Under the pieces are notes generated by a model. It searched no databases and had not been told where the DNA came from. It saw only the letters and a program-made list of their open reading frames with translations. From Tragulus kanchil (Eukaryota; Chordata; Mammalia; Artiodactyla; Tragulidae), in the NCBI GenBank assembly GCA_022376925.1, contig JAIOJX010000005.1, positions 9,886,501 to 9,950,500 on the forward strand: 64,000 nt of DNA, in the 5' to 3' direction. Shown here piece by piece: positions 1-64,000 of this stretch. A program made the position numbers and the translations under genes. Within the stretch, counting starts at the first letter, position 1. Every line of letters begins with the position of its first letter.

Positions 1-2022
1 TATAAAGTGACAGGAGCAAACAAACCACTGGTCAGAATAAGTGCCCATTGATAGATATTCATACATACTATTTAATACTGACAAAAAATGTTTTAAAGTT
101 ACTTATGATGTTTTCCTTTGATATATGCAATTTCAATTCATCATATTAATTGTACAAGCAAAACAACTAAAATTCAAGTCGAAGTGGGAAGAGATGACAA
201 GTTATAGAGCCATTTTTCCTCTTTGACTTAATAAGGTGAAAAAGGAGACATACATTATAGCCTGTGAAAGAGGGCCTGAAGGAACAAATAATAGATACAA
301 GTTCTTCCTTACTGCGTGATACAAGAAAATTTCTAGAAATTTTGTATTTTGTTTTATAACTCTCCCCATCCACTTTAGTCAGTGACACGATGAGAGGGAG
401 TGTGGGCCATCTTGACATTTTAATTGCTTTAATTTACAAGTCTTTTATATAATGAAGGATGGTTAAAATCAAAGACAAAATCAATTTTATGGCCTTATTG
501 AATGATGATGGATTCATTTGCATGACTGTCGACTCAGGTTATCAAAGGACACAAGCAGTCATCTCATGCTTGTAGTTTAACATTTATGAAGGCCAGTGTG
601 GTGTAAAACCCTGTATGTTTCCTATTGATCTTTTCACATTTGTATACCTTCTACTAACAACACAGAATCTTTGCATAGTAAAAACCTGGGCTGTACCTGT
701 AGACATGAGGATTCGTGTAGAGCTGACCATTTGGACGCATGGTCCAGCATCTAATGGATTCAAGCAACTATGCGTGTGGAGGGCCAGCTGCAGTAGGCAG
801 CACACATGAAGGGTTAGAACAGCTGTGGGGTTTGGTGTCTGTGGGGTCCTGGAGCCCATCCTCCGGAGCCCTATACCAGTTGGCATTTTGTCCTGTAGCC
901 TGTTCTTTAATTAAAGTAAGTGAGTATACCTATAAGATCTGTATTTTCCCTTGATCCTTTTAAATTACCAGGAAAGGGAAATATATATGCAGACTAGCTC
1001 CATGACAGGATTCAGTCAAGCTGAAATGTACCCTTTGGGAATTCACAAATGGAGTATTTCTAACTTCTTCCTCGGCACAGTTGTAAAATCTGACCATGAA
1101 CTACAAAGAAATTTGTTTTCTTTTTCTTCACAGGTATATAAAGTGACAGGAGCAAACAAACCACTGGTCAGAATAAGTGCCCATTGATAGATATTCATAC
1201 ATACTATTTAATACTGACAAAAAATGTTTTAAAGTTACTTATGATGTTTTCCTTTGATATATGCAATTTCAATTCATCATATTAATTGTACAAGCAAAAC
1301 AACTAAAATTCAAGTCGAAGTGGGAAGAGATGACAAGTTATAGAGCCATTTTTCCTCTTTGACTTAATAAGGTGAAAAAGGAGACATACATTATAGCCTG
1401 TGAAAGAGGGCCTGAAGGAACAAATAATAGATACAAGTTCTTCCTTACTGCGTGATACAAGAAAATTTCTAGAAATTTTGTATTTTGTTTTATAACTCTC
1501 CCCATCCACTTTAGTCAGTGACACGATGAGAGGGAGTGTGGGCCATCTTGACATTTTAATTGCTTTAATTTACAAGTCTTTTATATAATGAAGGATGGTT
1601 AAAATCAAAGACAAAATCAATTTTATGGCCTTATTGAATGATGATGGATTCATTTGCATGACTGTCGACTCAGGTTATCAAAGGACACAAGCAGTCATCT
1701 CATGCTTGTAGTTTAACATTTATGAAGGCCAGTGTGGTGTAAAACCCTGTATGTTTCCTATTGATCTTTTCACATTTGTATACCTTCTACTAACAACACA
1801 GAATCTTTGCATAGTAAAAACCTGGGCTGTACCTGTAGACATGAGGATTCGGTGTAGAGCTGACCATTTGGACGCATGGTCCAGCATCTAATGGATTCAA
1901 GCAACTATGCGTGTGGAGGGCCAGCTGCAGTAGGCAGCACACATGAAGGGTTAGAACAGCTGTGGGGTTTGGTGTCTGTGGGGGTCCTGGAGCCCATCCT
2001 CCAAGAATCCTGAGCCCTATAC
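1..2022. repeat. Direct duplication 1 (copies 1-877 and 1137-2022)
   Basis: Sequence from the window start to about 877 recurs from 1137 to about 2022, offset 1136. The first copy probably begins upstream of the window. Differences seen are a one-base insertion near 1851 and loss of about nine bases close to the end of the first copy (near 864), just before homology stops. The 259 bases between the copies (878-1136) have no second copy here. The duplicated sequence itself holds no repeat or gene that I recognise. Judged an unmerged assembly overlap rather than biology. Confidence 0.95.
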
Positions 2023-3898
2023 ATTTTGCTTTTGAAATGATGCTTTGTTTATCCATATGATTACTTGCCATGTACAGACATAGAGAGCTCATTGTTTCTG
2101 GGTATCATTCAAAGGGAAACAAGTTGGTTTAATACTCCATCATGGTTTAATCAGAAATATAGATAAAGCTTTGCTCTGTTTGAATTTATCCTTTATTCCA
2201 TCTGAGCCCTATTTTAGAGGTGGGGGGAGAATGGAGGAAGGTGAGATGACATAATAATATATACTATTCATTTATTCAGCAGATACTTATTTAGAAATTA
2301 AGACAGTTTTTAGATCCTTGGGGTACATCATTGATCAAAACAAAAACACCTTCACCGTCATGAACTTTAATTTCTTAAAGCGGGTAATGGACAATAAACA
2401 GTACAATAGCTAAGTACATTGTATAGCATTTCATAGGTTAAGCGTTAAGGCAAAAATAAGTAAAGCAAACTAAGAGCATATGGGGGCCAAGAAAGGGGTG
2501 GGTTGCAGGATAGATAACACTGAAAAGAGGAAGTGTGAACAACGTTCTGTAAAGTAGGGGGGGCGTGAGCAGTGTCCGCGTGGGGTGGAGGACAAGGCAG
2601 AGTGCGCGGAAGGGCAGCCAGCATTCAGGCCCTGAGTCAGGTGTGTTTAGGAGCTGGCAAGGAGCCCCGGGTGGCTGGAGAGGAGCGAATCAAGTAGCAG
2701 GAGGGAACAAACGATGGCTGGCTTGCAGAGGGTCCCGTGGCCACTGCCCACTCTTGGTGAAACGGGTGCAGGGCATTCCTGCGAAGGAGGAGTAACTGCA
2801 TGTTATCAAAGGACACAAGCAGTCATCTCATGCTTGTAGTTTAACATTTATGAAGGCGGGTGTAAAACCCTGTATGTTTCCTATTGATCTTTTCACATTT
2901 GTATACCTTCTACTAACAACACAGAATCTTTGCATAGTAAAAACCTGGGCTGTACCTGTAGACATGAGGATTCGTGTAGAGCTGACCATTTGGACGCATG
3001 GTCCAGCATCTAATGGATTCAAGCAACTATGCGTGTGGAGGGCCAGCTGCAGTAGGCAGCACACATGAAGGGTTAGAACAGCTGTGGGGTTTGGTGTCTG
3101 TGGGGGTCCTGGAGCCCATCCTCCAAGAATCCTGAGCCCTATACATTTTGCTTTTGAAATGATGCTTTGTTTATCCATATGATTACTTGCCATGTACAGA
3201 CATAGAGAGCTCATTGTTTCTGGGTATCATTCAAAGGGAAACAAGTTGGTTTAATACTCCATCATGGTTTAATCAGAAATATAGATAAAGCTTTGCTCTG
3301 TTTGAATTTATCCTTTATTCCATCTGAGCCCTATTTTAGAGGTGGGGGGAGAATGGAGGAAGGTGAGATGACATAATAATATATACTATTCATTTATTCA
3401 GCAGATACTTATTTAGAAATTAAGACAGTTTTTAGATCCTTGGGGTACATCATTGATCAAAACAAAAACACCTTCACCGTCATGAACTTTAATTTCTTAA
3501 AGCGGGTAATGGACAATAAACAGTACAATAGCTAAGTACATTGTATAGCATTTCATAGGTTAAGCGTTAAGGCAAAAATAAGTAAAGCAAACTAAGAGCA
3601 TATGGGGGCCAAGAAAGGGGTGGGTTGCAGGATAGATAACACTGAAAAGAGGAAGTGTGAACAACGTTCTGTAAAGTAGGGGGGGCGTGAGCAGTGTCCG
3701 CGTGGGGTGGAGGACAAGGCAGAGTGCGCGGAAGGGCAGCCAGCATTCAGGCCCTGAGTCAGGTGTGTTTAGGAGCTGGCAAGGAGCCCCGGGTGGCTGG
3801 AGAGGAGCGAATCAAGTAGCAGGAGGGAACAAACGATGGCTGGCTTGCAGAGGGTCCCGTGGCCACTGCCCACTCTTGGTGAAACGGGGTGCAGGGCA
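1674..3898. repeat. Direct duplication 2 (copies 1674-2774 and 2802-3898)
   Basis: The right part of the previous duplication continues and is copied again at offset 1128, so the segment near 540-877 exists three times (about 540-877, 1674-2022, 2802-3150). The 27-base spacer 2775-2801 vaguely resembles a damaged reading of what follows the second copy near 3899. A chain of overlapping copies is what successive unmerged pieces would give. The duplicated DNA includes a minus-strand L2 fragment. Confidence 0.95.
2255..2774 (-). mobile_element. L2 LINE 3' region fragment (first copy)
   Basis: It begins with the reverse complement of the L2 3' end (a run like cattcattcag followed by a dacay of the usual 'gagcacctactatgtgcc' text) and continues into the purine-rich body typical of reversed L2. 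Old and diverged. It belongs to duplication 2, and this copy is cut at its right end. Confidence 0.65.
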
Positions 3899-4180: not shown

Positions 4181-4189
4181 GAAGGACCA

Positions 4190-4370
4190 TTTAGGGACAT
4201 GGGCGGGGGCACGGTGATCAAGAGTGCAGAGAGAGACCTGGCAAATGTGAGAGGTCAACCAGACATCCGAGTGGAGGAATCCAGTAAGCAGGCATACAAG
4301 TCTAAGGTTAAAATGAGGTCTAGTCCAGGAACAAATATTTGAGTTGCCAACATATACAGAGAGAGGGCCC
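4190..4370 (-). mobile_element. L2 fragment
   Basis: 'gacatccgagtggaggaatc' near 4263 corresponds to the reversed L2 text about a peptide-less region ('gacatccaagtggagatgtc'). It is a continuation of the L2 at 3385-4180. A second copy lies at about 5293-5473. Confidence 0.6.
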
Positions 4371-4374
4371 TTGT

Positions 4375-4595
4375 AGAGGACTTTATCAGTTTTTGCTCAT
4401 TTATGTTTCATAATAACCCTATGATGTTGGCATGGTTATTCCTCTCTTTATTTTATCCATACGGGAACTAAGCCACAAAGAGACTACGTAATTTACCAAA
4501 GGCAATGAAGCAATGAAGCTAGCAAGGGGACAAAGAGGAAGAACTGGAATTCAGATCCTGGCATTACAATCTATGTTTTAATGCCCATGGTTTAT
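4375..4595 (-). mobile_element. MIR SINE
   Basis: The reversed MIR core is readable: 'ataaccctatgatgttggca', then 'gggaactaagccacaaagag', then 'ggaattcagatcctggcatt'. This matches the usual order of MIR in minus orientation. Diverged, as expected for an old mammalian SINE. Duplicated at 5478-5698. Confidence 0.75.
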
Positions 4596-5292
4596 TACAA
4601 GAGCGCAAGCTTGTGTTATCAGCTTTGCTTTGAGGTTATGTTGGAAGCGGAACATGGCTAAGGGAAAGAAAGAAGCAGAACCGCGTACATCTTAACTCAG
4701 TATTTTAAAAATTATTTGGCTTGGATTCACTCTACCACCTCACATAAATATCAGAAATTAGAATAAAATGTTCCTCGAAGTACCTTATACATCACACGTG
4801 TTCTCTGATGTTTTCTGTCGTATCCTATTCCATCGCTTCCGACGCCTTTTTATTCTAAAATATTTTGGCTATAAAAATGCTCATTTTAATCCATCTAAAT
4901 GATTATATAATAAAACCCTCAGCTGACAAAAATTCCTTGATTGATAGTTTTACAGGAGGGATTTCTGAACTCAGAAAAAGCTTTTGCAAGGAAATCCCTC
5001 TTCGGTACACCCAACAACCCCGTTAAGAGTATGGGCAATTCATTCTCTTACCTGGGGGTGAATCAAGGTAAATGAGAAAACACACAAGGTCAGGGCCAAC
5101 TTAGCTACTGGACACTGTAGACACAGAGCCCAGACTCGCCATACATTTAGAGGCCCATGAGAATACTTTAATTTCTTTTAAACTCAGAAGTAAAGATAAA
5201 TATAATCCAGCCTGTTTTACATGAAAAAAAATCTAAACTATAGAGAAGTGAGCTGTCGCAGGCTTTTGGTGGCCAAAAAATGAGCAAAAACA

Positions 5293-5473
5293 TTTAGGGA
5301 CATGGGCGGGGGCACGGTGATCAAGAGTGCAGAGAGAGACCTGGCAAATGTGAGAGGTCAACCAGACATCCGAGTGGAGGAATCCAGTAAGCAGGCATAC
5401 AAGTCTAAGGTTAAAATGAGGTCTAGTCCAGGAACAAATATTTGAGTTGCCAACATATACAGAGAGAGGCCCT
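5293..5473 (-). mobile_element. L2 fragment (duplicate copy)
   Basis: Second copy of the L2 piece at 4190-4370, produced by duplication 3. Confidence 0.6.
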
Positions 5474-5477
5474 TGTA

Positions 5478-5698
5478 GAGGCCTTTATCAGTTTTTGCTC
5501 ATTTATGTTTCATAATAACCCTATGATGTTGGCATGGTTATTCCTCTCTTTATTTTATCCATACGGGAACTAAGCCACAAAGAGACTACGTAATTTACCA
5601 AAGGCAATGAAGCAATGAAGCTAGAAAGGGGGACAAAGAGGAAGAACTGGAATTCAGATCCTGGCATTACAATCTATGTTTTAATGCCCATGGTTTAT
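5478..5698 (-). mobile_element. MIR SINE (duplicate copy)
   Basis: Copy of the MIR at 4375-4595 inside duplication 3, nearly identical to it. An independent MIR insertion would not match this closely. Confidence 0.75.
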
Positions 5699-6499
5699 TA
5701 CAAGAGCGCAAGCTTGTGTTATCAGCTTTGCTTTGAGGTTATGTTGGAAGCGGAATATGGCTAAGGGAAAGAAAGAAGCACCACCGCGTACATCTTAACT
5801 CAGTATTTTAAAAATTATTTGGCTTGGATTCACTCTACCACCTCACATAAATATCAGAAATTAGAATAAAATGTTCCTCGAAGTACCTTATACATCACAC
5901 GTGTTCTCTGATGTTTTCTGTCGTATCCTATTCCATCGCTTCCGACGCCTTTTTATTCTAAAATATTTTGGCTATAAAAATGCTCATTTTAATCCATCTA
6001 AATGATTATATAATAAAACCCTCAGCTGACAAAAATTCCTTGATTGATAGTTTTACAGGAGGGATTTCTGAACTCAGAAAAAGCTTTTGCAAGGAAATCC
6101 CTCTTCGGTACACCCAACAACCCCGTTAAGAGTATGGGCAATTCATTCTCTTACCTGGGGGTGAATCAAGGTAAATGAGAAAACACACAAGGTCAGGGCC
6201 AACTTAGCTACTGGACACTGTAGACACAGAGCCCAGACTCGCCATACATTTAGAGGCCCATGAGAATACTTTAATTTCTTTTAAACTCAGAAGAAAAAAT
6301 AAATATAATCCAGCCTGTTTTACATGTCTTTATAACAACACATATAAATATTTTATAATAGTTGCTAAACTATAGCTTAAAATTTTTTGTGGTAAAGGAG
6401 CTCACAAAAACAAACATGCTTAGAACCCACAAAAGTCATAATGAAGCTCTGTAAAGAGTGGAGAGAGAAGCAGTGATAAAAAAAAATATTTTTCAGTGC

Positions 6500-6665
6500 A
6501 GGATGGTACCTCTAGGGATATATTCTGGAGCTAGGCTTTTGAGATTCAAATCCCTACGTAATCACTTAGTAGTTGTGTGGCCTTCGGCAAGACCTTTAAA
6601 CTCATCTTGCCTCAGTTTTCTCACCTGTAAAATGGGACTGATAATGGTCACCTTAGAGGTTTGTT
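6500..6665 (+). mobile_element. MIR SINE, split by a younger SINE
   Basis: Reads through the MIR landmarks 'tagttgtgtggccttcggca', 'ctcagttttctcacctgtaa' and 'aatgggactgataatggtca'. It is interrupted by the Bov-A-type SINE at 6670-6866. The short MIR tail resumes after it ('attcctgccacgtag', near 6890). Confidence 0.85.
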
Positions 6666-6669
6666 TTAA

Positions 6670-6866
6670 AGTCTCTTTGAGACCCTGTGGACTGTAGTCT
6701 TCGAGGCTCCTCTGTCGATGGGATTCTCCAGGCAAGAATATTTTGCAGTGGGTAGCCATTTCCTTCTCCAGGAGATCTTCCCAACTCAGGGAAGACAGAA
6801 ACTCTTGTCTCCTCTGTCCTCTGCATTGCAGTCAGATTCTTTACAACTGAGCCACCAGGGACTTAT
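6670..6866 (-). mobile_element. Bov-A/Bov-tA-type SINE
   Basis: Minus orientation: the body 'ctgtggactgtagtcttcga' through 'ctccaggagatcttcccaac' ends in the reversed tRNA-like head 'ctgagccaccagggact'. Inserted into the MIR at 6500-6665, which makes it the younger element. Confidence 0.85.
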
Positions 6867-8169
6867 TAAACTTGGAAAAACTTAGACTAATTCCTGCCAC
6901 GTAGTCTGTAGTCACTAGAGAAGTGAAGAATGAACTCTTTTATTCCACAGTGTCTCTCTGTTCTGCCTCACATTTGTTCTATTCTTCTAAGATGCCACCA
7001 AAAAAAAAAAAAAAGATGCCCCTCTAGGTACCACATCCTACAAGTCCAGAGCTACAGCTTCAGAAAGTCTCACATCAGGAACAAATTTTCTCAACTAAAC
7101 TTTAATTCCATTCAGTTCTTCTTGCTTTTACTACTGAATGAATGGGACTTGCCCCAGATGAGATAGTCACCCTCAAACTCTGAAAGTTAAGGAAATTTGC
7201 ATTGGCAATAGTCTATCTTCTGACTAGAGTTTGAGTGGATCATCTTTGAAAGGGTCTTTTGCAAATGGCCACGTGGAAATGGCCATCTGAGGAAACACAT
7301 GCTGGACTTTCCAGAAATCCTCTGAACTTGGAGATGTTGTGAAGGAAAGAGAAAAAGAAGAGCAGAGCAAATGTAAATGGAGAAAAAAAGAGTGAAACAG
7401 AGAGAGAAAAAACAAAACTCAGTTTGAAAAGACCATTCATATATGTCAGGGGAGTACATCAAAAATCATAGAATCTTGACTTTTAAGAGTCAAGAGGATT
7501 ACCTTCTTGTTTCTGAATAATCAACACCAGGATTTTGTGATGGTTTTGGAGATTTGTTTGTGTCAGTATCTGAGCCTGCTGCTTATGAGCTGAACTGTCA
7601 AAACTTCTAAGTCAGGGAGAACACTCTCTGCCTAATCTTCATTGTTACTTTGAGCACCAAATGGGAAAATGCCTTGCCGAGAGCTAAGTGCTATAAAAAG
7701 GCAAGAAACAGATGAAGTCTGGGTGAATGGGACAGCTTAAATGTCTAGCTCTAGCACAGGAATAGAAATGCAAAAAATAGACTAATTCTAGTCTAAAATG
7801 TTGCTTCTGTCATGGCCAAATATTCAATACAGCCTAGTAGTCTCGAAAGACTGAAAACAGCACCTACCTGTTTGTAGGCTTAGGCTATGTTCACACCTTC
7901 ACTGCCAGTCTCATTATTGTATGAAATGTGATCACGCTTGGATAGTATTGTCCATCTGTAAGAAGCAAAGTGCTGGAATTTTTCCAAGCGTTTGTGAACT
8001 GCAGGACTTTTTCACATCTTAGTGTAGTCCCAGGCTACCTTCAGCTTTCCATTTGACCATAACCCTTGAGAAAGTACCTGCCATATTCAAGCTACAAGTA
8101 AGATGTGCTTCACTGCACACTAGATCTACTAGCCAGTGCCTTGCGGGGTATTCAACAGACTCAGCCTTC
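6867..8169. other. Unassigned non-coding stretch
   Basis: It contains the end of the split MIR (to about 6910), an A14 run at about 7001-7014 and otherwise AT-rich unique sequence. I see no repeat, exon or regulatory site I can support. The open frames at 7187-7462 overlap each other and show no recognisable protein. Confidence 0.5.
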
Positions 8170-8396
8170 AGCAGTTGTTGTTGTTTAGTTGCTAAGTCGT
8201 GTCCGACTCTTTGTGACCCCATGGACTGCACCAGACTTCTCTGGCAAGAAAGCTGGAGTGGCGGCAGTTCCCTGGCAAGAAAGCTGGAGTGGATTGCCAT
8301 TCTCTCCTCCAGGGGATCTTCCCGATTCAGGGATCAAACCCACGTCTCCAGCAGTGGCAGGTGGATTCTTCACCACTGATCCTCCGGGGAAGCCCT
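8170..8396 (-). mobile_element. Bov-A/Bov-tA-type SINE with internal 31-bp repeat
   Basis: Runs from 'ttgttgttgtttagttgcta' through the BovB-derived body to the reversed tRNA-like head at 'cctccggggaagccc'. The segment at 8241-8261 recurs at 8272-8292 (period 31), an internal tandem duplication that is not part of the normal element. The reading frame 8189-8929 starts inside this SINE. Confidence 0.85.
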
Positions 8397-10300
8397 GGCC
8401 TTCCGCAGACTCTCTGTCAAATAGTTCTTCTTTCACAGTCTCCTCTCTCCTCTTCTTCCTACTCTCTCTCTTCCCCTCAGTTGAATGTCCTACTTATGTA
8501 TTTGACCTTAAAAAACAGGAGCCGAGGTTTCAAGGCAGAACCTTCATCTCAGAGAAAGAGTGGGTTAAGTGTCCTCAGCGTATCTGCGGAAGTCCAGCGC
8601 CGCTGGTCCCCTCCCACTCCAACCATAGAATTACGTTTGCACAGCTGTGGAGCCGGCTGCCCCGTGTTCACTGCAGATCTCACAGCACACTGCTTTCCAG
8701 CAGCATCCTTGCTATATCTGGTCGGGACGCTGGCAGTAATCAGCTAAGAAGAAAGGATTTCAATAAAAAAATTGACGTCTACCAGCAGTTTTGGGATAGG
8801 GCTCAGAACGGCCCTACATATAAGGAAACTTCTCAAATTGTTCTGGAAAAAATTTCTCCCTGTTCAATTTGCTCAGTAGAAACAGAACAGGCAGAAACAC
8901 AATTAGGAGTGACAAGGGGGTTATTTTGATTCTTTTCTTTTTTGTCTTTGACTTGGACAGCTTGGAGGCTCCCTCTGAACTATGGATTTTATTTATGTAA
9001 CAGAAACATTTTTCAGCCAATATCTGGGTCTGGAGCTTTGATGGAGCTATAGATCACACCAAATTTTGGTTGATCGTAGATTTCCCTTTTACATAATTTA
9101 TTTTGCCACAGAACTTTCACGAGTGTATTTTACTGCATTTTGACATCAAAAGATTAGCTAGTAGACTTTAAGCAAATTAAATGCTTGATACATTATTACA
9201 ATTTTGTAAAACCTCACAGTGACTGAATCTTTCTTCAAGTTGTAAAATGCCTGAGGTAGTTTTCTTTTATCCATTCATGGAAGAAATTCATTCTAAATAT
9301 GCAGGAATAAATCATTAGTGTGGTTTCTGACATTTCAGCCCAAGATGGGCCTTATTACCCCATGTATCACTCAGTTCTCACCACAGAAATCCTCCCTATT
9401 TTATGAACAAAACAAACAGCTTGATCAATGGTCACTGTAATTTATGCTTGGTTTGTTTGTTAGTTAATTCAAAAATTCTTCTTTGTTTTTCAACGTATAT
9501 TTATATGTTTGCATCTGTTGTTCAGATCATATTCCCTTCAGGTAACTCAAGAACACTTACATTTCTCAAAATAGAAAAGATGCTCCTATTTCACTTGCCC
9601 ACCAGGTCTGGGTCAAACCACGTCCTCCCTTGTCTCATGAGTGGCAGCCACATAAATGGAAGAGTGTGGTAAGTCTCAGACCACCTGAACCATCCATAAA
9701 AATAACACCAGGTCAACCCAAAGTAAGCCAAGATCAGCCTTCAACTCACTTCATTGGCCTCTTGGTTCCAGCTCATATAATATGATCTGTATGAACAATT
9801 TCTGCTGTATAGTTACCTCGTAAAGAAATACATCATCTGCTGAGTCCTTTCATAAACCCAATTACTGGAACAATTCAACAGAGTTATAGCTACTAGGATC
9901 TGCATCCTCTCTTCTTCTGATTCTACTTATTAAAGACACTGAATTGGAAATACTGCAGTGGAAAGAAACAGTGACTGAATTTAGCCAACATAGAGAAGAC
10001 GGGTGTCATCACTCACCCAGGCATAATGTTAGTTCTCTCTTACTGCTGTGCCATCAGCTTCATTTATTATAGGTGATTTGTCTAAAGAAAAACTTATAAG
10101 CAGGCACTTTGTACACAAATATGAATATATTTTCAATATCTCACTGACTTATTTCTGAAAAATTATACATGATTCATTCAAAAGTATTAGTTGGCTATTT
10201 CATTTAAATTCAACCATCACAGTACTTTGATGGCTAAAATCTTTGGTGGCAAGTCTCAGAGAGTGAAAAAAAAAAAAAAACAGTTCATAAAATATATCAT
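8397..10300. other. Unassigned non-coding stretch
   Basis: 8500-8740 is GC-richer than its surroundings, with several CpGs. The rest is AT-rich, with an A14 run near 10267. I recognise no element or exon. The long frame 8189-8929 (246 codons) is partly reversed SINE and shows no known domain, so I do not call it a gene. Confidence 0.45.
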
Positions 10301-10595
10301 TAATTCAGTTCAGTCGCTCAAGTCATGTCCAACTCTTTGCAACCCCATGGACTTCCCTGTCCTTCACCATCTCCTGGAGCTTGCTCAGACTCATGCCATT
10401 GACTCAATGATGCCATCCACCCATCTTGTCCTCTGTCCTCCCTCTCTCCTTCTACCATTTATTTTTCCCAGCATCAAAGTCTTTTCCAGTGAGTCATCTC
10501 TTCCCATTAGGTGGCCAAGGTATTGGAGCTTCAGCTTCAGCATTAATCCTTCTAGTGAATATTCAGGGTTAATTGCCTTTAGAATTATCATTAAT
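10300..10595 (-). mobile_element. 5'-truncated BovB (RTE) LINE fragment
   Basis: The plus strand shows the reversed BovB 3' part: 'agttcagtcgctcaagtcat' near 10308, then 'atgatgccatccacccatct'. On the minus strand the frame 10391-10591 still reads the C-terminal end of the BovB reverse-transcriptase protein, with 'INPEYSLEGLMLKLKLQYLG' followed by 'DSLEKTLMLGKI'. It is a short dead fragment lacking the endonuclease and most of the RT. Followed by an AT-rich tail near 10590-10630. Confidence 0.9.
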
Positions 10596-10677
10596 TAATA
10601 TTATTAATTAATAATAGATAAAAATATGTTATTGGGGGAAAAATTCAAGTTGTGAAAGATGCAATGCCTTTTAGCTT

Positions 10678-10890
10678 CATGTGTGTGTACTAAGTCATGT
10701 CCGACTCTTTTGACCCCATGGACTGTAGCCCATCAGGCTTATCATGGAATTTCCCAGGCAGGGATACTGGGGTGGGCTGCCATTTCCTTCTCCAGGGGAT
10801 CTTCCCGACCCAGGGATCAAACCTGTGTCACCTGCAGCTCCTGCACTGGCAGGTGGATTCTTTACCACTGAGCCACCTTGGAAGCCCTTT
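10678..10890 (-). mobile_element. Bov-A/Bov-tA-type SINE
   Basis: Full-length-looking minus-oriented element, from 'taagtcatgtccgactcttt' to 'ctgagccaccttggaagccc'. An extra 'cctgcagctc' segment lies before the tRNA-like head. Confidence 0.88.
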
Positions 10891-11762
10891 AACTTCATAC
10901 AAGGCTCAGGCCAGTAGGGATTCATATTAAATTTATTATCTCAGGCAGAGTTCAAGTGGTGATACTGGTTTTGAGAAGAAATCATATGTTATAATAAAAG
11001 CTAGAAAGAGGCCAAGTAGAGAAGCAGATGCGGTGTTCCAATGAAAGCCTTCCTGTAACCACAGCCCATCATTCAGAACTGGGGAAGAATGAGAATCTGC
11101 TAGTACATTGAATCAAAAATTAATATTTAGTGCATTCACTGCAACTGGGTAAAAACACTCCACTCTGGTGCGTGTGAAAGCTTGTGTGATTCTCTTTCCA
11201 GTTGGTAATTCTCAGTGGACTTCGTTCTCTTTCAGTCTCTAGAAACCTCAATTCCTGTCCAATAACACCAGTGAATCTTGAATGCATGCGGGTGTCTTTT
11301 TTAAAATTATAACTCCTTTCATCTCCCTTGTATTTGCTCTTCAGTGGCCTAAGGAAAAACCATTGTGTTATTACGTGAGCTCATAAAAACATACATTTTT
11401 TTTTTCCCACATAAGACCTCAGTTTCCTTCCATAAATCTGTTGCTGGGATTCATCAGTTTCTTCTTCCCCTGAGGAAAACAGCTTCAAGCCTTAGGTTCA
11501 CATAATTCCTCCCATTGCATTCCTACCTCTGCCTAGTGTTAAGATAAAATGCCGCACTGGGAGGCAGGTCTAGAGGTCATGTAGTTAGCAACAGATAAAG
11601 AAATATGGAGGCAAGGCAAAGGTAAAACTCTGATCTTCCTAGGGATAAATCAACTACTGATTTGTAGTACATCATCAAACAGGAGAAAAATGCCTGAGGA
11701 CCATTGGTTCCTGTGGGGTCAGATGTACCGACCCTTCTGACTGCTCTGGAAACACTGTGTGT
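10891..11762. other. Unassigned non-coding stretch
   Basis: Ordinary AT-rich sequence with a T run near 11397-11405. Nothing recognised. Confidence 0.5.
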
Positions 11763-11769
11763 AGAGGAA

Positions 11770-52330: not shown

Positions 52331-52334
52331 GTGT

Positions 52335-52400
52335 TTTTTGTGCACCAACAAAATGCCAGACATTGTGCTCAGCCCTGGAGATACAAAGAGAAATAAGATG
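52335..52400 (-). mobile_element. L2 3' fragment
   Basis: 'gtgcaccaacaaaatgccag' then 'tgctcagccctggagataca': reversed L2 terminus. Confidence 0.65.
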
Positions 52401-52625
52401 GAAAGAGTACAGTCTAAATTCAGAGAGCCTTGGTCTTGAGTCTTGGTTCAACCTCTTAGCAGCTATGTAACCTTAGAAAAATAGCTTAACCTCTCTGAAC
52501 CCCTAGTCCACTTAGCCTACTTGTGAGGATACAATGGAACATGACACTTGTAGACTGCCTAGTTCACGTCACACTTAGTAGGGCTTCAGATATGAGATAC
52601 TCTTCTCTGTCAATTCAGAAATTGA
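52401..52625 (+). mobile_element. MIR SINE
   Basis: 'agagagccttggtcttgagt', 'cttagcagctatgtaacctt', 'aacctctctgaacccctagt' and 'acttgtgaggatacaatgga' follow MIR plus order. Confidence 0.75.
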
Positions 52626-52870
52626 ATCAGTCTGGTAAGAGAAATCAAACTGTGAAGAATGTCAGTGATACTATACAACTCGATAACCCTCCAGTGAGTT
52701 ACTGCAGAAGCGCTGAGTGCATCCTTGCTTTATCCTGAAACGAAGCATCAGGGAGCTCAGAAGAGTATTTAAACAGGAAAACATTTCCCAGGCAGACAAG
52801 GTAAAGGGAGAAATTCCAAACCAGGAGAATTGTCTGCACAGATCAGAAGCCTGCATGGGCTTGGCATAGA

Positions 52871-53132
52871 GCAGCACTGTTTAGTAGAAATGAGTGACAT
52901 TTGAAACCAAAAGGAACAGTGGAAATTAATTTTGATGCTGAATTTTATGCAGACATGTATCTACAGTGGCATCACGTCGACATGTCATGAATGTAAATGT
53001 TTAGAGCGATATTTCACGCTGTTGTCCCTATCCTAAGCTTTTGAAGTCAGCATGTATCTCTCTTTCAGCACGTCTCATTTTGCACTGGTGCTCAGTAGCT
53101 GCACATGACTGGTGGCTACTGCAGTGGACACT
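52871..53132. mobile_element. hAT-type (MER20-like) DNA transposon fossil
   Basis: 'gcagcactgtttagtagaaa' at the left and 'ctggtggctactgcagtgga' at the right resemble the inverted ends of MER20-like non-autonomous hAT elements ('agcactgtccaatagaa' and its complement). The interior 'gtggaaattaattttgatgc' and 'cagcacgtctcattttgcac' also fit. No transposase. Confidence 0.6.
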
Positions 53133-53580
53133 AAGAGTGTTGGGTGTGTGGGTGTGAGGGAGGGAGAGAGGAAGGATAAGAAGGAAGGCAGGAACCAGGC
53201 GTGCGACCAGGCTATGGAAACGGACTTGGCATGTTTGAGGAGGAGAATTATGTAACCAGGTCTGTAATTTACAAGGATGGCTGTGCAGGAGGCTTGCGAA
53301 GGAAGGGCCATCACTTGGGAGGCTGTCACAAGCGCTCTGGGTAGACTGTCGCTTCTGAAACTTCCATGAGAACACAGATCTTGTTTAAGTACAGATTCTA
53401 ACTTTCCAGGTCTGGCATTAGCCTGAGATTCTTCATGTCCAGCCAGCTCTATGAGATGTTAACGCCCCTGGTCCATGAACATCCTCCTTTGAGTAGCTAG
53501 GATTGAGAATAAAACCTAGAAAACAATGTAAAGGATTATGTTACTTAGAAGGGAGAAACCCTAGTTAACAATCAAAATGT
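53133..53580. other. Unassigned stretch
   Basis: Starts with a G/A-rich block (53133-53190), then unique DNA. Minus frames at 53028-53375 cover the transposon fossil and the purine block, so they are chance frames. Confidence 0.5.
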
Positions 53581-53581
53581 A

Positions 53582-53705
53582 GGAACTTCCCTGGTCGTCC
53601 AGTGGTTAAGACTTAGCTATCTCATGCAGAGCATATGGGGTCAATCCCTGGTTGAGGAGCTAGGATCCCATATGCCTCTTTGGCCAAAAAGACCAAAACA
53701 TGAAA
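53582..53705 (+). mobile_element. Short CHR-type SINE
   Basis: 'ggaacttccctggtcgtcca', 'gtggttaagacttagctatc', 'gagctaggatcccatatgcc' and 'tttggccaaaaagacc'. Confidence 0.85.
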
Positions 53706-54329
53706 CAGAAGCAATATTGTAACAAATTCAACAAAGACTTTAAAAATGGTCACGTTAAAAAAAAATCTTTAAAAAATTAATCAAAATGTAAACAAATGAC
53801 ACTAGTACTTTACAGTCCAGAACTAACTACTTGGCGCTGATCTCCAATCCCAAGTAACAAGCTGTGTCAGTGAAGGATGCTAATGCCAACCGTGGTCTTG
53901 CATTTCAATTTTCTTAACCTTCCAGGAAACTCGTTAATTCATGTTAAAAGGATAAAGGCATGTTAAGCACAAACTGCCTGTGATTTAGTGCACTTGGGGC
54001 AGGACAGTTTGATCCACCCATGAATTGCAAACCACAGGACTGTAACAGAATTGCCCATGCAGAGGTAGGAAGTGTGATGACTGGGTCCTCATATTTGATG
54101 TGGGTGATGAGGGGGAAGATAATCACATAACTTGCGAATTTATTTTTGCTGTTTTCCTATAGATTAAATAATTGAGAAGATCACTTGAGCCATATGGAGA
54201 GTTACATCATGACTTTTGAAATTTATTTTATATATTTTTATTCCATTTTAAAAAGGACAAAGTAAATTAGCCCATTGTGGGTTTTTTTTTTTTCCTCTTT
54301 ATTTCAGTAGAAGAGTGAGATTTTTTTTT
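53706..54329. other. Unassigned stretch
   Basis: AT-rich with A and T runs near 53760 and 54280-54330. Nothing recognised. Confidence 0.5.
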
Positions 54330-54593
54330 TAATTTTTGGCCTCTTTTATTGACTTTTTGTTTATTTATTTTCATCCATCTTTATTCTTCAGCCTGTGTGG
54401 GCCTCACATTGCAGTGGCCACTCTCTTGCAGAGCTCAGTCTTTAGGCACGTGCACTTCAGAGTGGCTGCTCTCAATTGGACTCACCAGTCCAGCCACTCC
54501 TCAGCATGTGGGATCGTCCTGGGCCAGGGATTGAACCAGCGCCCCTTGCATTGCAAGGCAGACTCTTTACCTACCGGACCACCAGGGAAGCCC
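54330..54593 (-). mobile_element. CHR-type SINE, distinctive-tail group
   Basis: 'ggcctcttttattgactttt', 'catccatctttattcttcag', 'tgtgtgggcctcacattgca', 'ggccagggattgaaccagcg' and reversed head 'ggaccaccagggaagcccag'. More diverged than the other members. Confidence 0.85.
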
Positions 54594-55135
54594 AGGAGTG
54601 AGAATTTTCTACAGAGAAAATTCTTGATGGAAAACTTGTCTTCTCTTAGCCAGAACTCATATTTTGGGAAAATAAGTCTTCAAGTTTATGAAGACAGATA
54701 AATGATTGTTTTTAAAATTCATTAACGATTTCCAAATGCTTCTTGGCCATTTTATGAAGTCAAGTGAATAAATAATTAGTATTTTAAATTAGAAGAATTC
54801 CAATATATACATATGTTCCTTGGGAATCTAAAGATTGAAAATGTATAGTTTACTTTGCGCATCTTCAGTGGATATTTTTTTGAATAAAGCAAGCAAGAGG
54901 AATGAGAGAACTGCCATACAGAATGGATGCAAGTCATATAATGAAGTAGATGAAGGTGATGTTTCTATCTGAGAAGCATGCATTTCTATTGTAATTTCAG
55001 CTTCTTTTCACTGTAAAATTTTTCCATCCTGGTCAGGTAACTGAGATCCCTCATGCCAGCAGTGTGTCCAAAACAAACAACAAAAAAAGTTGGGGATTTT
55101 TGGAAAGGCATTCTAGGCTTGGGTCACCCTCCAGA
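54594..55135. other. Unassigned stretch
   Basis: AT-rich unique DNA; nothing recognised. Confidence 0.5.
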
Positions 55136-55343
55136 TTGTTGTTGTTGTTTAGTTGCTAATTCGTGTCTGACTGTTTGTGACCCCATGAACTGTAGCCCAC
55201 CAGGCTCCTCTGTCTATGGGATTCTCCAGGCAAGAATACTGGAGTGGGTTGCCATTTCCTCTTCTAGGGGATCCTTCCAATCAAACCCAGTGACTTTTGA
55301 GTTGGCAGATGGGTTCTTTACCACTGAACTACTAGGGAAGCGT
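55136..55343 (-). mobile_element. Bov-A/Bov-tA-type SINE
   Basis: 'ttgttgttgtttagttgcta', 'ggctcctctgtctatgggat' and reversed head 'ccactgaactactagggaag'. Confidence 0.88.
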
Positions 55344-56334
55344 ATCACTCCTTAACTCTTAATAAATAATGCATTATATCGAGTAACAAATGACCAATTT
55401 AAAGCCACCACTTAGGTAACCATACCAACTGTTGTCCTCTCAAGGTTTTTCATAAAGACTATATATCCTGCTTTCTAATTAAGGGAGTAAGTGACTTGCC
55501 CTATATACTCTGGATGTTCAAGATCAGAGTATCACTGACAAAGATATTTTTAATGCTGGACTAATTTCCAAAGCATACCTTTCTATTGTAACTTCTGATG
55601 CATAATTAGCACATGTGCCACACACCGTGTTCAGAACAAATTCACGTGTCCTCAGAATGTCAACCATTTATGATCCTTTCCTGAATCTGTAGAGTGGCAG
55701 CCTTTGGTCTCATCATTCCTTTATTCTGGTTGGTTCCACTCCCCCAAAAAACATTCCACCAGTCCCGCTCAGAAGAATATTCAAATTCATTCTGCTCTAA
55801 AATTGTTCTCTTTCTTTCCTTTGGAAAGATCTCCTGGTAGAAACTTGAAGCACTTCATTGATTTAAGATTGTGTCAACTTGTAAAAAGGCTGTGTGACAC
55901 TTTCTAAATGTCATATTCTACCATAGTTACTTTGGGAAAAGCAATTTCCATTTTTAAATTTGACCTTTCTTGGGAACATGTTTGGTACATGTGATTTACT
56001 TCATTAAGTCAGTGGCATAAAAGATTTATAAAAGGATCTCCACTAGTGTGATAGTTCATCATCATGTATGGAAATCATGTTTGCCAGATGCTAGAGGGTG
56101 ATGAAAGGTGAGGGCAAGCATTAAGCTGAAGGCACATGGTAGATGACACTCATCTGGAAAGAGTTCACCTTCATATTTTTTCATGTGATATCTTGTGTAA
56201 TGCCACCAAATCAGAACACAGATATAAATGAGACACTGTCCGCTTTCAAAGCTAGAACCAGTTACTAAATATACAAAACAGTGGATTTTTTCACAGTTTT
56301 TTTCTGGGTGAAAAATAACTATGTTGTCTTTTTG
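55344..56334. other. Unassigned stretch
   Basis: Unique AT-rich DNA without recognised repeats or exons. Confidence 0.5.
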
Positions 56335-56550
56335 TGCTTAGTTGCTCCATTGTGTTTAATTCTTTGAGACCCCATGGACTGTTACCTGCCAGATTCCTCT
56401 ATCCAAGGAATTTTCCAGGTAGAAATACTGGAGTGAGTCGCCATTTCCTATTCCAGGCAGTCTTCCAGATCTAGGGATTGAGCTTGTGTCTTTTGAGTCT
56501 CCTGCACTGGCAGGCAGATTCTTTGTCACTGGTGCCACTTGGGAAGCCCT
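56335..56550 (-). mobile_element. Bov-A/Bov-tA-type SINE
   Basis: 'gtgcttagttgctccattgt' to 'ggtgccacttgggaagccct'. Diverged copy with an insertion near 56490. Confidence 0.85.
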
Positions 56551-57004
56551 GTTGTCTTCTTGCTATAATAAAAAAAGGCATCTAGGTGCCCTAATACCAA
56601 TACTCTGTGGGATTCCACAGGAAGTGAAGAAGCCCATCTGTATTTCTTCTGGGAGTGGAAAAGAGACCTGTAAGGAAGGCACTTATGACTTGTAACTCAG
56701 ATTCATTACTAGAAACTGACACGTTACACATTTCTGACATGTCAGTTATCTTGATGGTCCTGACCAAGCCGTATAGCTGTGCAGTTTATGACCATCTGAT
56801 GTCCATGTTGTTGTCATCAGGTGATCTGAAGTTAATATGACCTTGAAAATAATAAAGGAAAGGGAATGTTGATAGACTTGCTCGTGGGAAGACTTCTATC
56901 CAAGTGGCCATGTATAGTCAAAGACACAAAAGAAAGGTCTCTGAAGATGATTCTAGGAATAACAGTAGTAATAACTCAGAACTCGTTATGTGCTAATGCT
57001 ATAG

Positions 57005-57225
57005 AGCACAGTAAACTATTTTTCAGTTGACCCGAATTTTTCATAAGCAGTATTTCCTTTAGTATTTCTATCAACACTGTGTGCAAGTTATAAAATAATC
57101 TTATTTCCATTTAATTGATGAAGACATTGGTGCCAAAATAAATAAACAATAGACGCAGCACTAGCACCGAGGTTTCTGATTTCCGACGTGTGTTCTTTCC
57201 ATTATTCCATCGAGAAGGAAGCAAG
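57005..57225 (-). mobile_element. MIR SINE (first copy)
   Basis: 'tttccatttaattgatgaag', 'acattggtgccaaaataaat', then 'cgaggtttctgatttccgac': reversed MIR order, diverged. Copy at about 58087-58307. Confidence 0.6.
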
Positions 57226-57437
57226 AAGCAGTGACAAAGAAAAAAATCTAAACTCCTGAACTTTACCATCTCCAGGCTGCTGATTTGTTCCTTTTCTTGT
57301 TTAGAATGAATTTTGGGGGATATAAATCCCTGGAGTTAATTTTTTAAAATCCAGAGATCATCATTCAGTGTGTATAAGAGGAAAACCTCATAGTCTGGGC
57401 ATCTCGGCAAAAGGCTACAGCCTAAGAAGAAGAAGAA

Positions 57438-57515
57438 GGATGTTGTTGGTGGTCAGTCACTAAGGTGACTCTTTGTGACCCCATGGACTGCAGCGTGCCT
57501 GGTTTGCCTGTCAAG
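57438..57515 (-). mobile_element. Bov-A/BovB-type fragment (first copy)
   Basis: 'gtggtcagtcactaaggtga' then 'tgtgaccccatggactgcag': short end of a Bov-type element. Copy at about 58520-58597. Confidence 0.75.
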
Positions 57516-58086
57516 TGGGTAATATGTGCAGGGAGACCGACCTAACCCTTTTGGTATTTTGTGCAAACATTTCTTAGGCTCAAGATAAACACATTGATTT
57601 TTATGTCTCATTGTATGCCATTTTGTTCTTTTAACATCAGCAGAATGATCCCTAATTTTAATACATGTAACTTATTTGGCCATTCATAATCAAGAGAGGG
57701 AGTTTTTCGATCTAGAAAATACTGAGTTGAAGTTTCAAAGTCAAGTTGAGTCATTCATTTCCCAGATCCCTTCCACCACAGTTCAGTGGTGAACTGTGTC
57801 AATAAAGTTTTGAGTATGATAGTTTTAAAAAATCAGATGAAACTACTGGGAAGATAATGAATATTGGGATTCGTTAGGGCCTTTGGATTTTGTAGTCATC
57901 AGGTGATCTGAAGTTAATATGACCTTGAAAATAATAAAGGAAAGGGAATGTTGATAGACTTGCTCGTGGGAAGACTTCTATCCAAGTGGCCATGTATAGT
58001 CAAAGACACAAAAGAAAGGTCTCTGAAGATGATTCTAGGAATAACAGTAGTAATAACTCAGAACTCGTTATGTGCTAATGCTATAG

Positions 58087-58307
58087 AGCACAGTAAACTA
58101 TTTTTCAGTTGACCCGAATTTTTCATAAGCAGTATTTCCTTTAGTATTTCTATCAACACTGTGTGCAAGTTATAAAATAATCTTATTTCCATTTAATTGA
58201 TGAAGACATTGGTGCCAAAATAAATAAACAATAGACGCAGCACTAGCACCGAGGTTTCTGATTTCCGACGTGTGTTCTTTCCATTATTCCATCGAGAAGG
58301 AAGCAAG
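58087..58307 (-). mobile_element. MIR SINE (duplicate copy)
   Basis: Second copy of 57005-57225. Confidence 0.6.
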
Positions 58308-58991
58308 AAGCAGTGACAAAGAAAAAAATCTAAACTCCTGAACTTTACCATCTCCAGGCTGCTGATTTGTTCCTTTTCTTGTTTAGAATGAATTTTGGGG
58401 GATATAAATCCCTGGAGTTAATTTTTTAAAATCCAGAGATCATCATTCAGTGTGTATAAGAGGAAAACCTCATAGTCTGGGCATCTCGGCAAAAGGCTAC
58501 AGCCTAAGAAGAAGAAGAAGGATGTTGTTGGTGGTCAGTCACTAAGGTGACTCTTTGTGACCCCATGGACTGCAGCGTGCCTGGTTTGCCTGTCAAGTGG
58601 GTAATATGTGCAGGGAGACCGACCTAACCCTTTTGGTATTTTGTGCAAACATTTCTTAGGCTCAAGATAAACACATTGATTTTTATGTCTCATTGTATGC
58701 CATTTTGTTCTTTTAACATCAGCAGAATGATCCCTAATTTTAATACATGTAACTTATTTGGCCATTCATAATCAAGAGAGGGAGTTTTTCGATCTAGAAA
58801 ATACTGAGTTGAAGTTTCAAAGTCAAGTTGAGTCATTCATTTCCCAGATCCCTTCCACCACAGTTCAGTGGTGAACTGTGTCAATAAAGTTTTGAGTATG
58901 ATAGTTTTAAAAAATCAGATGAAACTACTGGGAAGATAATAAACAGTAATTATGTATTGGGATTCGTTAGGGCCTTTGGATTTTGTAGTCA

Positions 58992-59637: not shown

Positions 59638-60025
59638 AAAACCCACCCTCTGAATGAGACTATTTAATAAAGCTTTATTGAACAAATAGAAACAGCATTG
59701 GTTCTATCCCAGTATCCTAAAGTGCTAGACTAGGAGTCCTCTTGCAACGTTTAAGCCAAGATCTTCTATGAATCAAGAACTAAGCTTCTGAGAAGTGACT
59801 TCATAAATTGTCTTTTGATAGCCTAGCTCAGCATTACTTATACCATATTGGTAGCCTCATTGGATTCAAATTGATGAAATTGCATAAAATAGTATCATTT
59901 TTAGGTTCTGATATGACTTTAATCTGATGCAGCTCTTTGGATTTATACAGCCCTTAAAATCATGGGAAAATTGAGTTATGCGTTGTTTTATATAATTATG
60001 GTAAAATGTATATAGCCAGTTAATG

Positions 60026-60232
60026 AGATTCCCTGGTGGCTTCGAGACAAAAGGCACACCTGCCAATGCAAGAGATGTGGGTTCAGTGCCCAGATCTGGA
60101 AGATATTTGGAGAAGAAAATGGTAACCCACTCCAATATTGTTGCCTGGAAAATCCATGCACATAAGGATCCTGGTGGACTACAGTCCATGGGTCCATAGA
60201 AGAGTCAAACATGACTTAGCGCCTAAACAATA
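60026..60232 (+). mobile_element. Bov-A/Bov-tA-type SINE (first copy)
   Basis: 'gagattccctggtggcttcg' to 'aacatgacttagcgcctaaa' and a 'caataacaac' tail. The tRNA-like head is altered ('cttcgagacaaaag'). Confidence 0.87.
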
Positions 60233-61122
60233 ACAACACCGATGTTGGTGAGCAGATACATGCTTCTGTGTCTACTCTTCTATTTCCAGACAACTGATTT
60301 ACTGACAAACAAATATTTTCATTGCTCATTGGTTTATAGTCCTTCTTAGCAATTTATGACAATATAATGAAAACGCGATCTTAGGAACAAAAAGCACACA
60401 TAAAATTCTTCATTTTTATGTGCTGGAAAGTGGAGTGTATAACTAGGCTAAAACAGAAGCTGACCAAGAAGCACATTTTTAAAAAAGAGATGGACATACA
60501 AGCATCAAGAAAAGTAACAGTATTAGAGGTGACCTGCCTGATGCAAATAATTCCAGCAAACCTGGAAAACGTTTGCCTTGTTTTGCTCAATCTACAATGC
60601 CACCAGCTGTAGGATGTACCAGTATTTTATCTGCCACCAAAAAGAACAACCCAATTAAACTATGACAGAACGCATTTGAATCAGCTCAATTGTAAGATGC
60701 ATCCTATTTTCTCAAGTGTTAAAATGTTGTTTGTAAAACCCACCCTCTGAATGAGACTATTTAATAAAGCTTTATTGAACAAATAGAAACAGCATTGGTT
60801 CTATCCCAGTATCCTAAAGTGCTAGACTAGGAGTCCTCTTGCAACGTTTAAGCCAAGATCTTCTATGAATCAAGAACTAAGCTTCTGAGAAGTGACTTCA
60901 TAAATTGTCTTTTGATAGCCTAGCTCAGCATTACTTATACCATATTGGTAGCCTCATTGGATTCAAATTGATGAAATTGCATAAAATAGTATCATTTTTA
61001 GGTTCTGATATGACTTTAATCTGATGCAGCTCTTTGGATTTATACAGCCCTTAAAATCATGGGAAAATTGAGTTATGCGTTGTTTTATATAATTATGGTA
61101 AAATGTATATAGCCAGTTAATG

Positions 61123-61329
61123 AGATTCCCTGGTGGCTTCGAGACAAAAGGCACACCTGCCAATGCAAGAGATGTGGGTTCAGTGCCCAGATCTGGAAGA
61201 TATTTGGAGAAGAAAATGGTAACCCACTCCAATATTGTTGCCTGGAAAATCCATGCACATAAGGATCCTGGTGGACTACAGTCCATGGGTCCATAGAAGA
61301 GTCAAACATGACTTAGCGCCTAAACAATA
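61123..61329 (+). mobile_element. Bov-A/Bov-tA-type SINE (duplicate copy)
   Basis: Second copy of 60026-60232. Confidence 0.87.
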
Positions 61330-62064
61330 ACAACACCGATGTTGGTGAGCAGATACATGCTTCTGTGTCTACTCTTCTATTTCCAGACAACTGATTTACT
61401 GACAAACAAATATTTTCATTGCTCATTGGTTTATAGTCCTTCTTAGCAATTTATGACAATATAATGAAAACGCGATCTTAGGAACAAAAAGCACACATAA
61501 AATTCTTCATTTTTATGTGCTGGAAAGTGGAGTGTATAACTAGGCTAAAACAGAAGCTGACCAAGAAGCACATTTTTAAAAAAGAGATGGACATACAAGC
61601 ATCAAGAAAAGTAACAGTATTAGAGGTGACCTGCCTGATGCAAATAATTCCAGCAAACCTGGAAAACGTTTGCCTTGTTTTGCTCAATCTACAATGCCAC
61701 CAGCTGTAGGATGTACCAGTATTTTATCTGCCACCAAAAAGAACAACCCAATTAAACTATGACAGAACGCATTTGAATCAGCTCAATTGTAAGATGCATC
61801 CTATTTTCTCAAGTGTTAAAATGTTGTTTGTAAACTGCATGTCGTGAAATTAATGAAATACGATATTTCAAGTTTAACCACACAAGAATTGACTACCTCT
61901 CTAACCTTGATGATCTTCCCAGTGAGAGGCCCTCCCATCTGAGATCTTCACCTCTTATTCTCAGAGGAGAGCTATTTAAAGTGACCTCAAGTTTATTTGT
62001 TTTTTTCCCTTGCAAAAAGAAAGTCCGTTAAATCCATTCTCTGCTCTTGGATGATAAGAACGGC

Positions 62065-64000
62065 AAAATAAAAATCACATGTGAAGATATCTTATATATG
62101 CAGCTCTTTTTTTTAGGGAGGAGGAGACATTCCATAGTGTTACAAAGACGAGCTCACATATTGAAATATCAGGCCGCCCTTTCAATGCTTATGTTTCAAA
62201 TTGTGAGCTGTTGACGAGCTGCACTGTCTTTTCTATGCTCTGTTGAGCTCGATTCTGTTGGGTCCCCTTATTTGATCACTTCTTGGGGTGTTCTCTTATT
62301 TGAAAGTTGTCTGTGTCAACCCTGCCACACGCAATAATTCTCGGAACTCTGGTCCCTGGAGCCAGGAGTGGAGCCCCAGAGCTGGGATGGGTGTAGGGAT
62401 TTACCGGGCTGGCGTCTCCTTCCCATGTCTTCCCTTCCTCCCCTGCACCTGCACTACTGACCAGGCCCACCACCTTTCCAGGAACTTTGTTAAAAAATAT
62501 TATCCTAATTTACATGGTGATTGCTTAAGCATTGGGCATAAGAACAGTCACTATTTCATATGCTCTTCATAGTGTCACCCCTGTTATCCTCAACGTATGT
62601 ATCAAAAAATAATTTTTCTTTTTGGGTATATTTATGGTTATTCAGATTTTGGCTTTTTAACATCTGGGGGTTAATTTGAGCGTAAATCTATTAAGTTCTC
62701 TTGTTAAGTCAGAAAATTTTACCTTGGAGGAAATGACTCATCTGTGCTCTTGAAATCACACTTGGAATTCCTCAATTAACACGTTAGATGGAAGTTATGT
62801 AACAATGCTTTGAGGGGGTGTCCAACTCTTCAACTTCTTTTCTAAATGCGTCTCATCTTAGGTGATCTGGTCAAAGGGCCTCAAATGTTTCCCTTTTCTA
62901 AAAGCACGAAACACTTGTGTGGCTTGAAATTTGGGCTCGCATGCTCTCAAGCAACCGTGGCCGGCCCCCCGCCGCAGCCTCTTGGTCCGCCTTCCATTCA
63001 TACCTCAATCCCCAGCTTGTGCCCCATGGGGTCATTCTCTGAAAGACACCAGTGACTTACCGTCAAATCTTCTTTTCTCTCCTCTAAGCTCAGTACCATT
63101 TGTTGGCTACAGTTCCATCCTTTTCATCATACTGCAAAAAAATAAAAATCACATGTGAAGATATCTTATATATGCAGCTCTTTTTTTTAGGGAGGAGGAG
63201 ACATTCCATAGTGTTACAAAGACGAGCTCACATATTGAAATATCAGGCCGCCCTTTCAATGCTTATGTTTCAAATTGTGAGCTGTTGACGAGCTGCACTG
63301 TCTTTTCTATGCTCTGTTGAGCTCGATTCTGTTGGGTCCCCTTATTTGATCACTTCTTGGGGTGTTCTCTTATTTGAAAGTTGTCTGTGTCAACCCTGCC
63401 ACACGCAATAATTCTCGGAACTCTGGTCCCTGGAGCCAGGAGTGGAGCCCCAGAGCTGGGATGGGTGTAGGGGATTTACCGGGCTGGCGTCTCCTTCCCA
63501 TGTCTTCCCTTCCTCCCCTGCACCTGCACTACTGACCAGGCCCACCACCTTTCCAGGAACTTTGTTAAAAAATATTATCCTAATTTACATGGTGATTGCT
63601 TAAGCATTGGGCATAAGAACAGTCACTATTTCATATGCTCTTCATAGTGTCACCCCTGTTATCCTCAACGTATGTATCAAAAAATAATTTTTCTTTTTGG
63701 GTATATTTATGGTTATTCAGATTTTGGCTTTTTAACATCTGGGGGTTAATTTGAGCGTAAATCTATTAAGTTCTCTTGTTAAGTCAGAAAATTTTACCTT
63801 GGAGGAAATGACTCATCTGTGCTCTTGAAATCACACTTGGAATTCCTCAATTAACACGTTAGATGGAAGTTATGTAACAATGCTTTGAGGGGGTGTCCAA
63901 CTCTTCAACTTCTTTTCTAAATGCGTCTCATCTTAGGTGATCTGGTCAAAGGGCCTCAAATGTTTCCCTTTTCTAAAAGCACGAAACACTTGTGTGGCTT
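62065..64000. repeat. Direct duplication 18 (62065 onward and 63139-64000, cut by window)
   Basis: Offset 1074-1075. The second copy runs off the window at a point matching about 62925. The text just before it (63124-63138, 'ttcatcatactgc') looks like a damaged form of the genuine left flank at 62050-62064 ('gatgataagaacggc'). One G differs near 62396/63471. No repeat element or gene recognised in the unit. Confidence 0.96.

Follow-up and report, generated by a model that had tools for sequence, protein, structure and literature searches.

The window, by which we mean the whole stretch of 64,000 nt that was analyzed, contains 18 neighboring pairs of near-identical sequence in direct orientation, whose offsets in a self-BLAST range from 1065 to 1205 bp. 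The offsets have a mean of 1102 (standard deviation, 32; coefficient of variation [CV], 0.03; median, 1093.5), or a mean of 1096 and a standard deviation of 20 when the outlier of 1205 (pair 11) is set aside; the copies are 98.73 to 100% identical, and in 3 of the 18 pairs (pairs 5, 9, and 17) the aligned part is free of differences. With a minimum length of 150 bp and a minimum identity of 94%, the self-BLAST returned 21 direct matches in total, the three further ones (offsets 2155, 2212, and 2264) being one segment met across two successive pairs. An earlier reading of the window, made from the sequence only, had claimed 18 near-identical direct duplications of about 1.1 kb, and this is borne out both by self-BLAST and, independently, by exact 31-mers, which form 18,098 direct pairs: 17,609 with offsets of 1050 to 1249, 463 in the bins from 2150 to 2299, and 26 elsewhere. 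Its description of the copies as almost identical also holds, at 98.7 to 100% versus at most 89.3% for the best internal match outside the 18-pair set (matches of more than 100 bp with an E value of at most 1e-10), and its estimate of 19 to 20 kb of false sequence agrees with the summed offsets of the 18 pairs, which come to 19,842 bp. There are no Ns in the window. Separately, 116 31-mers are common to the window and its reverse strand and represent inverted repeats.

The junction between the two copies is fully visible for 16 pairs (pairs 1 and 18 aside), and 8 of these junctions carry 4 to 67 extra bases. Such residues separate the copies of pair 2 (left copy at 1671-2775 and right copy at 2799-3898; 23-bp residue, 99.2% identity, offset 1128), pair 3 (4188-5223 and 5291-6326; 67 bp, 99.1%, offset 1103), pair 6 (17508-18573 and 18578-19640; 4 bp, 99.6%, offset 1070), pair 7 (20541-21659 and 21664-22782; 4 bp, 99.8%, offset 1123), pair 9 (26175-27244 and 27281-28350; 36 bp, 100%, offset 1106), pair 12 (36894-37977 and 38006-39091; 28 bp, 99.4%, offset 1112), pair 13 (40232-41260 and 41297-42326; 36 bp, 99.6%, offset 1065), and pair 15 (46096-47177 and 47204-48286; 26 bp, 99.6%, offset 1108). 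One junction, that of pair 4 (11763-12844 and 12845-13934; 99.1%, offset 1082), has no extra bases, and at the other seven the copies overlap by 1 to 16 bases. Five of these overlaps measure 1 to 3 bp, in pair 5 (14882-15967 and 15967-17052; 100%, offset 1085), pair 10 (30652-31740 and 31738-32825; 99.9%, offset 1086), pair 11, the longest (33285-34490 and 34490-35695; 99.2%, offset 1205), pair 14 (42156-43247 and 43246-44335; 99.4%, offset 1090), and pair 17 (59638-60737 and 60735-61834; 100%, offset 1097); the remaining two, in which the copies join at an imperfect similarity, measure 16 bp in pair 8 (22603-23708 and 23693-24797; 99.6%, offset 1090) and 12 bp in pair 16 (56805-57898 and 57887-58991; 98.7%, offset 1082). 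Pairs 1 and 18 appear incomplete, with apparent spacers of 272 and 213, because the window edge cuts one copy of each. The left copy of pair 1 (99.8%, offset 1136) starts before the window and occupies 1-864, with the right copy at about 865-2002 (matching part, 1137-2002), and the left copy of pair 18 (99.9%, offset 1074) runs from 62065 to about 63138, with the right copy extending from 63139 to beyond the window end; their junctions would thus lie at about 865 and 63139. No strand is assigned to the pairs. Where successive pairs overlap, there are three-fold direct repeats, at 535-3124 (about 330 bases), 21481-23872 (about 180 bases), and 41091-43413 (about 170 bases), and the longest stretches without duplicated copies are 6327-11762 and 48287-56804.

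Of the 36 stop-to-stop frames with 110 or more amino acids, 20 were searched against Pfam and yielded no match at the cutoff and three weak ones below it, and neither an Rfam search at gathering scores nor a tRNA scan found anything in the window. Two SINE motifs, which we take to be ruminant or cetartiodactyl, had 17 and 10 matches with up to three mismatches, versus 0.03 and 0 by chance, and several of these matches lie inside duplicated copies; going by these motifs, the window would come from a ruminant-like genome. A SINE-like family is present at 17839-18111, 25413-25686, 25890-26167, 28837-29114, 48690-48969, and 54325-54591, its copies being about 75 to 89% alike, and many of the other internal matches of more than 100 bp are SINE-like. 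These comparisons suggest that the SINE-like insertions would be much older than the 18 pairs, were the latter real.

The differences between copies are concentrated at the ends of the copies and have a direction. The 18 alignments contain 62 difference events (25 substitutions and 37 indels, 24 of the latter changing the length of a single-base run), and the outer 130 bp of the copies hold 38 of the 62, or 8.6 per kb versus 1.6 per kb in the interior (binomial P of about 1e-10, with events treated as independent). Near the start of the copies it is the right copy that lacks bases in 9 of 10 indels, and near the end it is the left copy in 15 of 15 (Fisher P of about 5e-6); indels in the middle are split 7 to 5. 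Since events within one pair are not independent, we also counted by pair end, and all 15 untied ends agree in direction, with one tie at pair 8 (two-sided P of 6e-5). The 130-base zone was picked after the alignments had been viewed; the direction of the indels persists with end zones of 20, 70, 100, 130, and 200 bases. The left copy of pair 4 has five deletion events within its final 66 bases, and that of pair 16 has an 11-bp deletion near its end. Judged from the missing bases, which fall where right copies begin and where left copies finish, the two copies differ in consensus quality; if the pairs are untrimmed overlaps, those two places are exactly where one piece stops and the next one starts. 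Mutations beside the junction could likewise come from error-prone joining of a real duplication, because both faulty ends face it. In pair 13, three substitutions (40630-40641 and 41695-41706) leave the right copy with a nearly pure A run in place of an interrupted A-rich one, a change that resembles a consensus error.

Retention of both haplotypes of a diploid animal at each site would be a heterotype false duplication, a common assembly error according to published work (PMC8081667, PMC9516828), and some pairs do contain interior substitutions. These are found chiefly in pair 3 (4188-6326), which has the most interior substitution events, four, at copy positions 192 to 490; they resemble variation between haplotypes or paralogues more than errors in run length. 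Haplotype differences should, however, be spread along the copies and directionless, whereas those observed sit at the seam-facing ends with a direction: beyond the 38 events in the outer 130 bp, several interior substitutions in one pair occur in pair 3 alone. Given also that the length is about 1.1 kb at all 18 sites and that 3 of the 18 pairs are identical, we consider heterotype retention highly improbable as the source of the pairs.

The junctions themselves carry further traces of the ends of pieces. Overlaps of 1 to 3 bp are near chance, and overlaps of at least 10 bp were seen in 0.4% of random placements; the 16- and 12-bp similarities of pairs 8 and 16 are imperfect against the start of the left copy, and at both seams the sequence follows the left piece's version before continuing into the right one, as though a brief, spurious match between the ends had been taken as genuine. 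Under ordinary alignment scoring, seven of the eight residues were not like the flanks beyond chance, and one of the eight fell below 0.05. Under a deletion-tolerant scoring, which was devised after the junctions had been viewed, the residue of pair 9 (27245-27280, plus strand) is a version, with bases missing, of the 60 bases before the left copy: 35 of its 36 bases are readable in order through those 60 bases, and a match as good was found in 0 of 200 random loci in a first test and in 0 of 150 loci and 0 of 150 shuffles in a second. The residue of pair 3 (5224-5290, plus strand) is deletion rich and consists of the sequence after the right copy followed by the sequence before the left copy (as good in 1 of 100 random loci in the first test and in 0 of 150 loci and 0 of 150 shuffles in the second). 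Next came the residue of pair 15 (0 and 1 of 150 in the two nulls); the residues of pairs 12 (as good in 10 of 150 random loci and 17 of 150 shuffles) and 13 (6 of 150 and 12 of 150, respectively) are weak, that of pair 2 gave a null result (38 of 150 random loci and 69 of 150 shuffles), and the two 4-bp residues (pairs 6 and 7) had no flank match under this scoring. Taken together, the six residues measuring 23 bp or more resemble the true flanks once missing bases are allowed for, with a summed score that none of 20,000 resampled sums equaled; the sums were resampled from 150 nulls each, for random loci and for shuffled residues, and this test took six of the eight residues, both 4-bp ones being left out as too short after they had first shown nothing. 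In the two clearest cases, pairs 3 and 9, the residue repeats the true sequence lying outside the copies but with many bases deleted, and the residues are what a thinly supported, deletion-prone end of a consensus would look like.

Seams occur at a frequency of about one per 3.7 kb, and they avoid each other: the smallest junction advance, with offsets removed, is 806 bp versus a null median of 98 for 18 random positions (P = 0.0014), as is expected of shared anchors of fixed length. They are not periodic (advance CV, 0.88), and no pattern of 256-base steps was seen by eye in the piece lengths; the latter inspection took 1137 as the first junction, and the spacing statistics took 865. This irregularity bears on the idea that the duplications were inserted by a polishing or gap-filling program working in fixed windows. 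Such a program would account for the fixed overlap size, but fixed windows would space the seams regularly, and the pieces between seams range from 1,934 to 10,683 bases; we regard this origin as improbable.

The same junctions and spacing can be set against the idea that the tandem duplications are real and very recent, the product of a replication-linked mechanism that favors a span of about 1.1 kb and joins ends by microhomology or templated insertion. The small insertions at eight junctions and the imperfect similarity of 12 to 16 bp at two resemble error-prone end joining. Within roughly 44 kb of underlying sequence, however, 18 such events would be required, with no two junctions less than 806 bp apart once offsets are removed, and, if the density held, about a million events genome-wide (an extrapolation from one window with an approximate genome size). 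The clearest residues reproduce the flanks with many deletions, and we know of no repair product of that kind; nor, to our knowledge, does any known tandem duplication process yield 1.1-kb duplications at such density. Many direct duplications of similar span are also characteristic of the tandem duplicator phenotype (Menghi et al. 2018, as cited in PMC10663159). Processes with a preferred span do exist, and in one report the duplications of a transmissible clam cancer have a mode near 11 kb and are likened to what follows when TP53 and BRCA1 are lost in human cancers (PMC10663159). There the phenotype is somatic in a cancer and its span is about 10 times larger, whereas the duplications in the window are 1.1 kb long and dense, with errors directed to the seams. 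We consider real duplication exceedingly improbable. The corresponding biological claim would be a germline process in a ruminant-like lineage that makes tandem duplications of about 1.1 kb, at dozens per 100 kb, with error-prone, deletion-biased synthesis flanking the new junctions, and we find it scarcely credible.

Taken from the sequence evidence, the pairs are very probably false duplications made by the assembly; we would put the probability at roughly 96%, whatever the step and including the haplotype, scaffolding or gap-closing, and polishing variants. The sequence-only reading had proposed that the assembly process kept both versions of the overlaps between neighboring pieces, and this finds support in the anatomy of the sequence alone, namely, the directed end errors, the degraded residues, the spacing, the absence of Ns, and the uniform size. 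Published descriptions place the origin of homotype false duplications at the boundaries of contigs, with copies that differ in consensus quality (Rhie et al. 2021, Vertebrate Genomes Project; PMC8081667), and add that their depth is low and that gaps are frequent (Ko et al. 2022; PMC9516828). Like these, the pairs in the window are near-identical direct copies of one locus, as left by uncollapsed overlapping ends, with unequal consensus quality. The published cases are often about as long as a read and often have a gap between the copies (which is not stated to be required), whereas in the window each copy measures about 1.1 kb, no seam contains Ns, and seams recur about every 3.7 kb. The end-directed errors, the degraded residues, and the minimum spacing point to boundaries between pieces, which we infer, and the window would fit the homotype class except for the absent gaps and the fixed size.

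Overlapping ends of separate contigs may instead have been scaffolded and the gaps closed later, with each overlap left twice. Such steps are a published origin of homotype duplications, whose copies are then separated by a gap (PMC8081667), and incorrect gap filling has also been named as a cause (PMC9516828). Plain contig scaffolding is disfavored because the window is without Ns; the pieces are, moreover, as short as 1.9 kb, and there is one overlap size throughout. We consider this route unlikely; it is the same class of error, made at a different step.

The best explanation would be a stitching failure within the contig itself. A long-read assembler would have made the contig as a chain of consensus pieces of about 1.9 to 10.7 kb, each having a fixed anchor of about 1.1 kb in common with the next. 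At 18 seams, stitching would have missed the true overlap, and the next piece would have been added in full or attached where the ends matched trivially or by a short, spurious similarity; with the overlap not collapsed, both consensus versions of the anchor would stand in tandem, and the seam would carry the final bases of one piece and the opening bases of the next, both with poor support. Both the existence of such pieces and the stitching failure are what we infer from the seams. If such pieces compose the entire contig, the joins inside 6327-11762 and 48287-56804 would presumably be correct.

As a guess, the assembler was of the wtdbg2 type and its input was nanopore-like reads prone to deletions; we are much surer of the class of error than of the program. 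In wtdbg2, graph nodes of 1024 raw bases are common to neighboring edge consensuses, and the stitching of edge consensuses by wtdbg2/wtpoa-cns is reportedly described by Ruan and Li 2020. The fixed-length node (1024 bases) that neighboring consensus units have in common resembles the uniform overlap in the window, and a failed join would therefore leave about 1.1 kb twice. As reads of this kind lack some bases, the true sequence covered by a node of 1024 raw bases would be slightly longer, in line with 1065 to 1205; the observed offsets exceed 1024 by 4 to 18%, which is compatible with deletion-prone reads but not diagnostic. The two-step design of wtdbg2, with layout followed by consensus, is set out in the available part of a published account (PMC9915519). 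In the excerpts of one benchmark, the nanopore wtdbg2 assembly leaned to collapses relative to other read types and was not named among those with expansions, and 84.8% of the structural errors were under 500 bp (PMC8590762), so the guess of wtdbg2 is not favored by that source as far as those excerpts go. Within the portions of the literature covered, such a stitching failure of wtdbg2/wtpoa-cns is not reported, and among the matches listed there is no description of tandem pairs of about 1.1 kb in long-read assemblies, which does not in itself prove their absence from print.

Our results have consequences for the use of the assembly. The directed end errors provide a signature by which such seams may be recognized in finished sequence without reads. 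If the whole assembly behaves like the window, roughly 45% would have been added to its true length (19.8 kb on 44.2 kb), and repeat counts, gene models, the dating of duplications, and variant calls made on the assembly would be wrong. The 18 pairs are almost certainly untrimmed overlaps, about a third of the window looks false, and the pattern of duplications, which most likely holds no new biological information, should not be taken for biology.
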